A stretch of DNA of 64,000 nucleotides from an uncultured Chlorobiaceae bacterium (GTDB lineage Bacteria > Bacteroidota > Chlorobiia > Chlorobiales > Chlorobiaceae), in contig CAIJVD010000010.1 of assembly GCA_903824045.1 (NCBI GenBank), positions 1-64,000 of the forward strand, given 5' to 3'. Under the pieces are notes generated by a model. It was not told the DNA's origin, ran no database searches, and was given only the letters and a program-made list of their open reading frames with translations. Positions within the stretch are counted from its first letter, which is position 1. Each line of letters begins with the position of its first letter. This document shows, one piece after another, positions 15,041-60,552 of the stretch. The position numbers were made by a program, and so were the translations under genes.

Positions 15041-15595
15041 TCACCCCCCCTGCACGACCTTGCTGTGAACTGCGGTGGTCAGAGTGTCGATACGCTCGGC
15101 CAGCTCTCTGACGAGCTCTGTGAGGCGGGTGTTTTGCTGAAGCAGCAAAAGAATCTGTTCCGACTGCCGGGCCCCAAGCAGCTCGCGCTGTTCGCTGGCC
15201 ATGGCAAGCGCCTCACGGTGCTGTGCGTCAGCATCGGCATGGGCCTTGTCGCGGTCGGCCTGCCGTGTCTGCGCAAGCAGGATAAGCGGTGCGGCATAGG
15301 CCGCCTGAAGGCTGAATGCAAGGTTCAGGAGGATAAAGGGATAGATGTCGAAGCGGGTGTATCCTGAAGCATTCAGGAAAATCCAGATAGCAACAATAAT
15401 TGTTTGTCCTACAAGAAAGACCGGTGTCCCGAAAAAACGGGCAAATCCTTCGGCCTTCAGCGCGAACCAGTCATCACCGAAGACCGAGCCGAGATGAAGG
15501 TGCTGCAAATGGAAGCGGAAGTAATTGGTTGGGGCCTCAGTAATGCCTGGTTGCTCTTCTCTATGTTCCGGATTGCTCTTGATCGTTTCAGCCAT
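15041..15595 (-). CDS. DUF1003-family membrane protein
   Basis: DxxA/GFARFFGTPVFLVGQTIIVAIWIFLNASG...FDIYPFILLNLAFSLQAAYAAPLILLAQTRQADRDK, typical DUF1003 two-TM pattern. Confidence 0.88.
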   Translation of the reverse strand: MAETIKSNPEHREEQPGITEAPTNYFRFHLQHLHLGSVFGDDWFALKAEGFARFFGTPVFLVGQTIIVAIWIFLNASGYTRFDIYPFILLNLAFSLQAAYAAPLILLAQTRQADRDKAHADADAQHREALAMASEQRELLGARQSEQILLLLQQNTRLTELVRELAERIDTLTTAVHSKVVQGG

Positions 15596-15600
15596 GGTGG

Positions 15601-16824
15601 TCAGTTGTTTAGTCTTCGCATGTATGCCGGTGTATCCGGTTTGCCCTTCTGAATTCTCTCTTCATACGGCGCTCTTCTGCCGCTCGGTGAGGGGTATTGC
15701 ACCCCGCCTTCCCGCAATGCACTCCCGACGCCTTTTTCAACAGGCTCGATGATCTTTATCTCTCTTCGGATGTAGGCTGGAACGCCCAGATCCGATTTCT
15801 CAAAGAGAGGTTGAGGCTCCTCAACCTCGGGAACCACTGCCGGCCGGCGGCGGCACCCTGTGGCGATCACGGTCACCCTTGTTTCGCCCGAATGTTGGGC
15901 GTCGTCTATGTAGCCGTTGATAATGGTAGTTTGCTGGCCGACCTGCTCCTCGATATAGGTCATCGCTTCGGAAAGATCACGCATGGTAAGCTCACCGGTA
16001 ATATTGACCAGAATCCCCCGGGCATCCCTGACTGAAACGCCCTCTTGCTGCAACGTTTCAACGGTGCTTGTGGCGGCCTGCAGAGCGCGTCTCTCGCCGG
16101 AAGCCACGGCCGTTCCTATGACCGCATCGCCCGCACCTCTCAGGAGTTCCGAGAGATCGGCAAAGTTGACATTGATGTGACCACGGCTGGTAATAATGTC
16201 GGCAATCCCCTTCGCCGTCATGTAGAGCAGATCGTTTGCCAAAATGAACGCTTCATTGACTGTGGGGTTGTCTATAGCACCGTTCAGGATGCTCTCATTG
16301 TTCACCAGAATGAGGGTGTCGATGTGCCGGCGCAGCTCTTCGATCCCGCTTTCGACGCTCCTGGCACTCATGCGTCTTTCGCAGCTGAACGGCTCGGTCA
16401 CTATGCCAACGGTGAGGATCCCCATATTTCTCGCAATCAGGGCTATGAGCGGCGCAACCGTTGTACCGGTCACCTTGCCCATTCCCGCCGCGATGATCAC
16501 AATATCGGCACCTTTAAGCTGGGCGGCAATGTTCTCGGCGTCACCTTCATCCAGCAGCGGGTTGCTCACTCCTCCTCTTGAGAGCGAAACGCCCTTGACT
16601 GAGCCGTTCGAACTCCTCTTGCCGACTCTGACCCTTTTTTCTGCTTTGGAGGCAACAAGGGTCTCCGGATCGGTATCAAAGGCAATGTAATCGACGCCCG
16701 CAATCGACTGCTCGATCATATGGTTCAGCGCATTGCATCCGCAACCGCCGACGCCGACAATTTTTATGGAGATTCCTTTGCCATGGAGCGTGTCAAACAG
16801 TTCCGGCTCTATGATGAATGCCAT
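15601..16824 (-). CDS. Divergent FtsZ-like tubulin-superfamily protein
   Basis: Full-length FtsZ architecture: IKIVGVGGCGCNALNHMI (T1), GADIVIIAAGMGKVTGTTVAP (altered T4), GHINVNFADLSELL (altered T7), FtsZ C-domain, C-terminal DTPAYMRR peptide. Confidence 0.93.
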   Translation of the reverse strand: MAFIIEPELFDTLHGKGISIKIVGVGGCGCNALNHMIEQSIAGVDYIAFDTDPETLVASKAEKRVRVGKRSSNGSVKGVSLSRGGVSNPLLDEGDAENIAAQLKGADIVIIAAGMGKVTGTTVAPLIALIARNMGILTVGIVTEPFSCERRMSARSVESGIEELRRHIDTLILVNNESILNGAIDNPTVNEAFILANDLLYMTAKGIADIITSRGHINVNFADLSELLRGAGDAVIGTAVASGERRALQAATSTVETLQQEGVSVRDARGILVNITGELTMRDLSEAMTYIEEQVGQQTTIINGYIDDAQHSGETRVTVIATGCRRRPAVVPEVEEPQPLFEKSDLGVPAYIRREIKIIEPVEKGVGSALREGGVQYPSPSGRRAPYEERIQKGKPDTPAYMRRLNN

Positions 16825-16857: not shown

Positions 16858-17871
16858 TCAGAACACGGCGTGCTCACCAAGCTCCTGGCCTTTGAGGCCC
16901 TCTTTCAGCACCCGCTTGTAGAATTCGCGCAGGGTGTCGCTTCCGTATGAGGGGGTCAAGTCGGCACTGTACTTTCCGCTCTTCGCATCGAACACCAACA
17001 TCGACTCCGAGCAGTAGTATTTGCCGATACGGGCAAACTCCGCCTTGTCCTGTAGCTTGGGAAAGATCTTCGAAAGCAGGCTGAGCAGCGCAATGATCAC
17101 GTCAAACATCGCGATCGGCATATTTTTGAACTTCGGTTCTCGCCCGAGAAGTTCAAAGAGCAGTTCACCCTGCTGTCTGGCAGAAATCGCCTCGCCCGGC
17201 CCGCCGATTGGCATGACGGTGTTCTGCTGCTCGGAATTTTCGAGGCAGTTGACGATGAACCGGGCCAGATCCGCCTCGCTGATAGGCTTGCAGGCGGTCA
17301 GCTCCCCGTTGCCGAACATGATGTAGGGCTTCCCTTTCTTTACAGACTCTACCTGGCCGGCGATCGACTTGAAAAAGGCCGTAGGACGCACAATTGACCA
17401 GGTGAGCCCTGAGGCAATCAGTTCGCCTTCGAACTTCAGTTTCGCACGCTGGAACTCAAGCAGGGGCTTCTGGACGCAGATGGCGGAAAGCAGCACAAAG
17501 TGAGTAGCTCCGGCTGCTTTGGCAGCGTCGAGCGCGTTGCGGGTTGCCTGATAGTCGATATTCCATGAATCCTTTATCCCCCCGTTACGAGAGGTCAGGC
17601 AGGAGACAAAAACGTCGAACTGTTCACCCTTGATGCCGGTTCTCATAAGTGAATCCATGCTGCCGACATCGCCGAACCGCACCTCGGAGCCCTTCAGCTC
17701 CCGGCGAATCTCATCCGCACCCCCGGTACCGGAGCGTTCACGGGCGAAACTCACCACCTCATAGCCCCGTAAAACAAGTTCACGGACCACGAACTTGCCG
17801 ATGTAGCCGGTAGAACCGACGACGAAGACGCGCCTTGCTCTCTGGCTAAAAGTATGTGAAGGAGTATTCAA
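16858..17871 (-). CDS. bciA: Divinyl (proto)chlorophyllide a 8-vinyl-reductase, NADPH-dependent, BciA type
   Basis: VFVVGSTGYIGKFVVRELVLRGYEVVSFARERSG, NIDYQATRNALDAAKAAGATHFVLLSAICVQKPLLEFQRAKLKFE, GKPYIMFGNGELTACKPISEADLA: characteristic of BciA. Confidence 0.9.
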   Translation of the reverse strand: MNTPSHTFSQRARRVFVVGSTGYIGKFVVRELVLRGYEVVSFARERSGTGGADEIRRELKGSEVRFGDVGSMDSLMRTGIKGEQFDVFVSCLTSRNGGIKDSWNIDYQATRNALDAAKAAGATHFVLLSAICVQKPLLEFQRAKLKFEGELIASGLTWSIVRPTAFFKSIAGQVESVKKGKPYIMFGNGELTACKPISEADLARFIVNCLENSEQQNTVMPIGGPGEAISARQQGELLFELLGREPKFKNMPIAMFDVIIALLSLLSKIFPKLQDKAEFARIGKYYCSESMLVFDAKSGKYSADLTPSYGSDTLREFYKRVLKEGLKGQELGEHAVF

Positions 17872-58660: not shown

Positions 58661-59251
58661 ATGAAACTCCTGCTCAAGCTGACGCTCTATTTTCTCCTCT
58701 CGACAAGCGTTATATCCGGGCTCTTTTTTTTAAGCCTGGGCTTTCTGGTTTCACTTCACGCAAGCACTCCACAAAAAGCTGATGTCATCATCGTGCTCGG
58801 CGGGGATAACGGCTTGCGGGTTCGAAAAGGGGCGGAGCTCTACAACTCCGGATATGCATCACACATCATCCTGACGGGAATCGATGAGCGGTTCTACAAA
58901 CCTGCCCATCCCAACTGGCGGGAGCGCCGAATGATCGCCTTTGGAGTACCGAAAACCTCGATCAAGGTGGACACCCGTTCAACAACCACCTGGGAGGAGG
59001 CTGTCAATTCATCAGAAACCATGAAGAAAAAAGGGTGGCGCCATGCCATCGTCGTCAGCGACCCTCCGCACATGTTCCGTCTCTACCAGACCTGGAGCAA
59101 GGCCTTCGACGGCTCGGAGCTCTCCTTCATTCTGGTTTCAACAAAGCCTGAATGGTGGCACCCGATCTTCTGGTGGGAAAACAGCAAGAGCTGCCAGTTC
59201 GTTGTAAACGAGGTCAAAAAGAACCTCTTTTACTCTATCATGTACTACTGA
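58661..59251 (+). CDS. YdcF/SanA-like (DUF218) membrane protein
   Basis: ADVIIVLGGDNGLRVRKGAELYNSGYASHIILTG; DTRSTTTWEEAVNSSE; HAIVVSDPPHMFRL. Confidence 0.88.
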   Translation: MKLLLKLTLYFLLSTSVISGLFFLSLGFLVSLHASTPQKADVIIVLGGDNGLRVRKGAELYNSGYASHIILTGIDERFYKPAHPNWRERRMIAFGVPKTSIKVDTRSTTTWEEAVNSSETMKKKGWRHAIVVSDPPHMFRLYQTWSKAFDGSELSFILVSTKPEWWHPIFWWENSKSCQFVVNEVKKNLFYSIMYY

Positions 59252-60552
59252 GGCTCCCCATCATCCCCCTCTATTTCGGCCTCTCTGGCAAGATCCGGCG
59301 GAATCTGACGGCTAACTTTTGCTCCGAGCTTTCGAATTTCCTCAACTCTTCCGACAAGGTTCCCTCTCCCCTCCTTCAGTCGTTTCAGAGCCAGATCAAA
59401 TGAGTCCGTCACCCCTGAAAGCCTCTTTCGGGCCTCGCTCATCGCCTCCAGTACAAGAAAGACCTGATCATAGATCCTGCCAGCCTTTTCAGCGATAAGC
59501 TCCGCATTGCGGTTCTCATTGTCACGCCTCCAAATCTGGGCGATGAGCCTGAGGGTGACCATGAGCGTCGTCGGACCACAGAGAACAATATTATTGCCGG
59601 CAAACTCGTAGAGAAGATCGGAATCGGCCTGCAGGACGGCCTGCCAGGCTGGTTCAAGGGGAATGCACATGATAACAAAGTCAAGAGTCCGGTTGCCGCC
59701 AATATCGCTGTACTCTTTGGTCTGTAGCCCTGCAACGTGCCGCCGCACAGAGTTCAGGTGCTCCTTGAGCGCCTGCTGCCGAAGCGCTTCATCCTCCTCT
59801 GAGCTGTAACGCTCATAGGCCGTCAGGGAGACCTTGGAATCGACAATAACCGCCTTGCCGTCAGGGAGCATGACCACGAAATCAGGGCGTTTCAACACGC
59901 CACCCTCCTGGCGAAAGCTCTCCTGGGCAATATAGTCCCGACCCTTTTCGAGACCGGAAACCTCAAAGATCCTCTCAATGATCATCTCGCCCCAATCCCC
60001 CTGCTTTTTCGAATCGCCCTTGATAGCCCTGGCAAGCAGGTTTGCCTCATCGCTCACTCTGCCACTCAGCGCATGCAGCTGCCGCACCTGCTCGATAAGG
60101 CGCCCGGACAACTCGGTATCGCTCAGATGCACCTCTTCGACCCTTTTGCGGAAAGCCTCGAGCTGTTCACGAAGCGGTTGCAGGACACCCTCCATACGCT
60201 CACGATTCTCCTGGCCGATCGTCCGCCCGCGCTCTTCGAAAATGCGGTTGGAGAGGTTTTCGAACTCGGTTTTCATGCGTAACTCCGACTCCTTCTCAAG
60301 CGCTGTTTTTTCGGCAGCAATGCGCCGCTCACTCTCAAGTTCGGTCTCAATGCGGGCGTAACGCAGCTTGAGAGCGTCGAGTTCGGTGGTTTTTGATTCA
60401 AGCGTCGCCAACACCGGGCGCGAGCTCTCTTCAACAGCTCGAAGCCGCATCAGTTCCTCCCGCTGTGGAGCATCACGAACAATGCGGAATGCCACAAAAG
60501 CGAGCGTGAGAAGAAAAAGGAGCAGTATCAATACAACAGAGATGTCAAGCAT
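59245..60552 (-). CDS. rmuC: RmuC-family DNA recombination protein
   Basis: Coiled coil then KKQGDWGEMIIERIFEVSGLEKGRDYIAQESF, KRPDFVVMLPDGKAVIVDSKVSLTAYERY. Confidence 0.95.
   Translation of the reverse strand: MLDISVVLILLLFLLTLAFVAFRIVRDAPQREELMRLRAVEESSRPVLATLESKTTELDALKLRYARIETELESERRIAAEKTALEKESELRMKTEFENLSNRIFEERGRTIGQENRERMEGVLQPLREQLEAFRKRVEEVHLSDTELSGRLIEQVRQLHALSGRVSDEANLLARAIKGDSKKQGDWGEMIIERIFEVSGLEKGRDYIAQESFRQEGGVLKRPDFVVMLPDGKAVIVDSKVSLTAYERYSSEEDEALRQQALKEHLNSVRRHVAGLQTKEYSDIGGNRTLDFVIMCIPLEPAWQAVLQADSDLLYEFAGNNIVLCGPTTLMVTLRLIAQIWRRDNENRNAELIAEKAGRIYDQVFLVLEAMSEARKRLSGVTDSFDLALKRLKEGRGNLVGRVEEIRKLGAKVSRQIPPDLAREAEIEGDDGEPQ

Follow-up and report, generated by a model that had tools for sequence, protein, structure and literature searches.

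The 64,000-nucleotide stretch of DNA analyzed here (the window), from an uncultured Chlorobiaceae bacterium, a green sulfur bacterium of the Chlorobium type, encodes a paralogue of FtsZ, termed the C2 type, which has lost part of its catalytic machinery and may act as an accessory subunit of the division ring. C2 is a single branch within a larger family of paralogues, accompanied by a second FtsA or an additional FtsW. The gene and its surroundings are as follows.

16858 to 17871, minus strand: NAD(P)-dependent epimerase-like gene (Pfam), 33 bp upstream of C2, co-transcription possible
15601 to 16824, minus strand: ftsZ paralogue of the C2 type, 407 aa (P0001), identified by translation, Pfam, PDB match and orthologues
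15041 to 15595, minus strand: DUF1003 membrane protein gene (Pfam), 5 bp downstream of C2, co-transcription possible
59249 to 59274, no strand: junction between a DUF218 gene (58700 to 59248, plus strand) and an RmuC gene (59275 to 60498, minus strand), the C2 site of other genomes, empty in the window

The frame is uninterrupted, and a purine-rich ribosome site (AAAAAGGA) lies about 8 nt 5' of the ATG. Both FtsZ domains were recognized by Pfam (Tubulin, PF00091, 104.3 bits; FtsZ_C, PF12327, 55.3 bits), and the top match in the Protein Data Bank was Bacillus subtilis FtsZ (E=5e-57), so that the description of the gene as intact and FtsZ-like from end to end, made in a sequence-only reading, was borne out. 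Against TIGR00065, the curated NCBIfam equivalog profile for FtsZ, the window protein scored 256.4 bits, below the cut-off of 295.2 bits, whereas the canonical FtsZ of the same genome scored 376.6 bits. The two proteins are 50.6% identical over their full length and have their domains and C-terminal peptide in common. The canonical gene (G000:C37) occupies the dcw cluster, whereas C2 lies outside it, between the epimerase and DUF1003 genes. The Pfam search of window C2 found FtsZ_C and reported no Tubulin_2, which sets the protein apart from CetZ, TubZ and FtsZ-like 1; CetZ is without the FtsZ_C domain (PMC9871819). In trees, which held no CetZ, TubZ or FtsZ-like 1 rows, it grouped with Chlorobium FtsZ paralogues (100/100). 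An AlphaFold model of the paralogue, based on seven sequences, was poor, with a mean pLDDT of 50.

The altered and retained motifs are listed below. Residue numbers are those of E. coli FtsZ and agree with the B. subtilis numbering at an offset of one.

16732 to 16758, minus strand: T1 loop VGVGGCGCN, with Cys at the E. coli G23 equivalent, as in all C2 and C3 copies
16531 to 16578, minus strand: T3 region RGGVSNPLLDEGDAEN, in which four residues are inserted when compared with canonical FtsZ (alignment)
16459 to 16479, minus strand: T4 tubulin signature GKVTGTT, where the canonical proteins of the order have GKGTGTG; Val at the G107 equivalent and Thr at the G111 equivalent
16156 to 16173, minus strand: T7 loop NVNFAD, with Asn at the D209 equivalent and the D212 equivalent kept
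15760 to 15783, minus strand: linker motif VPAYIRRE, matching canonical Chlorobium IPAYIRRQ
15604 to 15636, minus strand: C-terminal conserved peptide DTPAYMRRLNN (alignment; canonical DTPAYLRR)

Translation confirmed GKVTGTT at T4 and the replacement of the first T7 aspartate by asparagine, both of which had been read from the DNA, and T2 and T3 are atypical as proposed, with Arg replaced by Pro in T2 and T3 rewritten with four added residues. The lysine of GKVTGTT, on the other hand, had been counted as degeneration and is an order-wide trait. All 63 of the aligned canonical FtsZs of Chlorobium have it at the second T4 position, as do all further canonical FtsZs of the order that were examined; GKGTGTG is the canonical signature across the order examined, GGGTGTG that of other members of the phylum. 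Because this lysine is fixed in the canonical proteins of the order, K117 of the window copy is not a sign of degeneration. Even with the lysine discounted, window C2 departs from GGGTG[ST]G by the loss of G107 and G111, and its T7 loop departs from NxDxxD.

The substitutions recur throughout the type. D209 is Asn in all 12 C2 orthologues of the genus and the last signature glycine, G111, is absent from all of them (Met, Thr, Asn or Ile in its place), while G107 is missing from 10. Every C2 also has G23C, proline in T2 (R46P) and the four-residue insertion in T3. On the other hand, G105, T108, G109, E138, N186, D187, N207 and D212 are kept in 12/12. The idea of a degenerate site therefore stands for G111, D209 and usually G107 and fails for G105, T108, G109 and D212, and since D212 is retained in every copy together with the three signature residues, the catalytic machinery is altered only in part. 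With the T3 insertion, G23C, R46P, D212 and neither G111 nor D209, the window protein belongs to the degenerate FtsZ paralogue clade of the Chlorobiaceae; it is unlike the other C2 proteins at T5, with E for K and ERR for EGK. The C-terminal conserved peptide is the FtsA binding site in known FtsZs. It is kept, sometimes with a substitution, in 11 of the 12 (DTPAYMRR in the window), the exception being G068, where a stop codon precedes it; the second motif, IPAYIRR, is present in all 12.

Of the canonical-invariant positions, 72% are kept and many are changed. Changed surfaces are T2, T3, T5, H6 and T7/H8. A change confined to one longitudinal face, as for simple capping, was considered and is not clear, with 51% kept in C2 in loops assigned to the top face and 64% in those of the bottom face, the assignment being approximate.

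The window genome (G000; 2.085 Mb in 37 contigs, 99.96% complete) holds three tubulin-family genes, namely the canonical ftsZ directly 3' of ftsA in the dcw cluster, the window C2 and a third, more degenerate copy. The gene was thus correctly called a paralogue, and neither of the findings that would have spoken against this applies, since relatives share the substitutions and the window copy is not the only ftsZ of its genome. The genome also has two full-length MreB genes (G000:C23:231106-232077 and G000:C35:62071-63042). C2 orthologues were found in 12/65 genomes of the genus, that of the window included (G000, G005, G009, G016, G032, G066, G067, G068, G079, G082, G083 and G086). Because the genomes are mostly metagenome assemblies, absences are soft. 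As most Chlorobium genomes are without the gene, division does not generally depend on C2. In G083 a second, partial C2 (G083:C218; L061 2-367) lies at the RmuC site and is 92.6% identical to the C2 of G005, the full copy being on G083:C97; two C2 copies or mixed strains would account for it.

In the tree of canonical FtsZs, ten of the 12 C2 genomes and G069 group together as a single clade (98/95), and C2 is vertically inherited in this 11-genome clade. In G009 and in most clade members with a readable locus, C2 lies between a DUF218/Rrf2 side and an F8/RmuC side. The DUF218/RmuC site is empty in G003, G014, G069 and G081, and the window C2 lies 43 kb from the empty site of its own genome. 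The simplest, though unproven, account would be that C2 reached G009 by recombination and was moved or transferred independently in G000. Within the C2 group, the window copy has diverged most. Its placement with the third type rather than with C2 was considered and is weak (94/36), with long branches, and monophyly of C2 was not rejected (AU p=0.205). Pairwise dN/dS of C2 was 0.09-0.24, compared with 0.02-0.15 for canonical ftsZ of the same clade, and dS was similar for matching pairs. C2 is under purifying selection.

A second FtsA (FtsA2) was found in exactly 8 of the 65 genus genomes (G005, G016, G032, G066, G068, G069, G079 and G086), all inside the main C2-bearing clade; the Fisher value for this distribution, 2.5e-7, is uncorrected for shared ancestry and reflects one clade. 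The same search found no second FtsA in the window genome. FtsA2 is about 61-66% identical to FtsA and its C-terminal amphipathic helix is intact. In G069, ftsA2 directly precedes a second ftsZ, labeled X, and the pair lies between cupin and recQ genes (L156 11784-14322, G069:C11); in the other holders ftsA2 has the cupin/recQ place and ftsZ2 lies elsewhere. X has canonical motifs, is without the C-terminal peptide and is sister to C2 plus the third type (97/88). This suggests, without proving it, a duplication of ftsA-ftsZ as the source of the pair. An origin within the C2 clade is hard to square with the occurrence of the third type in a second genus. In two genomes (G062, a single 2,364,842-bp contig, L063 6922-8358; G024, L051 5756-7300) there is another second FtsZ, separate from these and older, whose motifs are canonical and whose open frame extends 57-93 codons beyond the aligned start in the upstream direction. 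A genome of the order with 13% contamination has a distant, possibly foreign second FtsZ (G048:C60:12861, L049; 30.7% identity).

C3, the third type, was found in G000, G016 and G023, in G032 with a broken frame and in G020 as a gene split at residue 110; three genomes belonging to a second genus of the family (G101, G102 and G105) have a related form. C2 and C3 form one clade (100/100). Every C3 has lost D209 (Asn, Ser or Gly instead) and kept D212, and 5/8 carry G109S, the change in the E. coli allele ftsZ6460, which is reported to be low in GTPase and temperature-sensitive (PMC8953583). The G020 gene was probably interrupted by an insertion; at each half (L046 and L048; G020:C30 and C6) the contig ends about 139 bp past the break, as for a repeated insertion element. 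An extra FtsW is encoded near C3 in G000, G016, G032 (broken) and G101. The C3 genes lie within a few kb of this FtsW-like SEDS gene (L053 7119-8351 and 9762-11054 on G000:C33; also L045, L047 and L129), whose product groups with the dcw FtsW and not with RodA. C3 loci share DUF2085 neighbors, and some also DUF3298. In G016, G020, G101 and G105 a vWA-domain gene stands beside C3; these genes (DRSGSM; L129 5358-6056, L131 1000-1602, L045 5566-7365, L046 4025-5854) come from two genera and in some cases are fused to or lie beside a conserved domain of about 370 aa without a Pfam match. The arrangement recalls the vWA partners of FtsZ-like 1.

C2 proteins keep the base- and ribose-contacting residues, the docking peptide and the catalytic D212, and have lost D209, G111 and canonical T2 and T3. 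The retained base and ribose contacts and first half of the signature speak for GTP binding, the missing D209 and G111 for impaired hydrolysis, and the retained peptide for tethering via FtsA. C2 would then bind GTP, be recruited through FtsA, or in the main clade possibly through the dedicated FtsA2, join or cap canonical protofilaments and either hydrolyze GTP slowly or fail to trigger hydrolysis in its neighbor, by which turnover, stability or geometry of the ring would be altered. Precedents exist for such behavior. E. coli FtsZ84 (G105S) hydrolyzes 0.47 instead of 7 GTP per FtsZ per minute and supports near-normal division under permissive conditions (PMC4603965), T7 mutations are reported to disturb polymerization and not GTP binding (PMC3684127), and plant FtsZ1 forms no detectable protofilaments or assemblies alone, yet tunes and restrains FtsZ2 (PMC8142252). 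On the strength of the kept and lost residues, the kept peptide and these precedents, an accessory FtsZ that shares the membrane-tethered ring of the canonical protein and tunes the turnover of this ring is favored over a separate filament or a slow GTPase, and we give it roughly an even chance. Also counting for this role are the canonical ftsZ in the same genome, the selection on C2, FtsA2 in eight genomes of the main C2-bearing clade, the adjacent ftsA2-ftsZ2 pair of G069 and the clustering of C3 with an extra FtsW, likewise a divisome part. Counting against it are the absence of the gene from most Chlorobium genomes and the window genome itself, which is without FtsA2 and has the most diverged C2, and because both longitudinal faces are changed and not just the catalytic residues, co-assembly with canonical FtsZ might fail.

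The changed surfaces (T2, T3, T5, H6 and T7/H8) would also suit a C2 that forms its own filament, unmixed with the canonical ring and with FtsA2 where present, at another place or time; examples would be a specialized septum, branching or ternary fission, and a scaffold unrelated to division. FtsA2 in eight genomes, the ftsA2-ftsZ2 operon of G069 and the ternary fission described in the Chlorobiaceae (PMC8232776) fit such a filament. The C-terminal peptide is nevertheless still canonical, the window genome has no FtsA2, and gas vesicles, tried as a rough marker of Pelodictyon-like morphology, were weakly associated (9/17 versus 12/48, Fisher p=0.07); we regard a separate filament as possible but unlikely. 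Less likely again is a further reading, that part of the green sulfur bacteria has a second dedicated division filament. In it, an FtsZ impaired in hydrolysis and served by an FtsA of its own (in the sister type, also by an FtsW of its own) would build a heteropolymer in which one subunit type holds GTP unsplit, like alpha-tubulin, and the filament would determine an uncommon way of dividing, for example ternary fission.

Retention of D212, N207, G105, T108, G109 and E138 in all 12 C2 proteins would also suit an ordinary FtsZ with other kinetics, in which D212 alone and the kept pocket residues suffice for slow GTP hydrolysis and the substitutions are compensated. No copy retains D209 or G111 and many canonical-invariant positions are changed (72% kept), which makes this rather improbable. 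A decaying duplicate with little function might be suspected from the faster evolution of C2 than of the canonical gene, the broken C3 of G032 and probably interrupted C3 of G020, and the G068 C2 without its peptide. The frames are, however, open over the GTPase and C-terminal domains in 12/12 C2 genes, the same substitutions recur in every copy, inheritance is vertical in the 11-genome clade, and with dN/dS well below 1 the selection test largely refutes decay, which is very unlikely. Almost no weight can be given to sequencing error, strain oddity or contamination, as the same motifs occur in 12 genomes from independent assemblies and the contig of at least 64 kb has neighbors typical of the genus.

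Among known systems, the chloroplast pair FtsZ1/FtsZ2 (PMC8142252) likewise has two types per lineage, one modulating the other, but plant FtsZ1 keeps its GTPase and has lost the C-terminal peptide, whereas C2 keeps the peptide and has an altered active site. The archaeal FtsZ1/FtsZ2 pair, including that of Odinarchaeota (PMC12583498), consists of two paralogues with distinct tethering, but stems from an ancient duplication with GGGTG[ST]G and NxDxx[DE] intact. Extra ftsZ genes outside dcw, with suspected subfunctionalization, are described for a few bacteria such as Bipolaricaulota in a survey that does not mention Chlorobi (PMC9871819). Nitrosopumilus FtsZ (PMC3684127) also has degenerate nucleotide and T7 motifs, but is without the T7 motif, failed to polymerize in yeast even when given the motif of E. 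coli FtsZ and is not a paralogue next to a canonical FtsZ. FtsZ-like 1 has vWA partners (PMC2875224), as Chlorobium C3 has a vWA neighbor, whereas the Chlorobium proteins are close to canonical FtsZ, have FtsZ_C and gave no Tubulin_2-type match. Among the matches listed from phages and plasmids there were just ordinary FtsZs of about 40% identity or less and no close relative, viral contigs yielded no relative, and defense-system models matched neither paralogue type nor the vWA neighbors. In open-access papers, no description of a conserved Chlorobium FtsZ paralogue was found.

To our knowledge, one FtsZ serves division in nearly all bacteria. Beside the canonical protein, Chlorobium has a conserved paralogue that shows the same losses in its active site wherever it occurs; one clade has FtsA2 in addition. 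An extra FtsZ in some green sulfur bacteria, often with an extra FtsA, suggests a built-in modifier of the division ring. Such a system offers a natural test of the roles that the signature glycines, D209 and the turnover of GTP play in the Z ring of a living cell, and it is a parallel among bacteria to the rings of plastids and archaea that contain two FtsZs.
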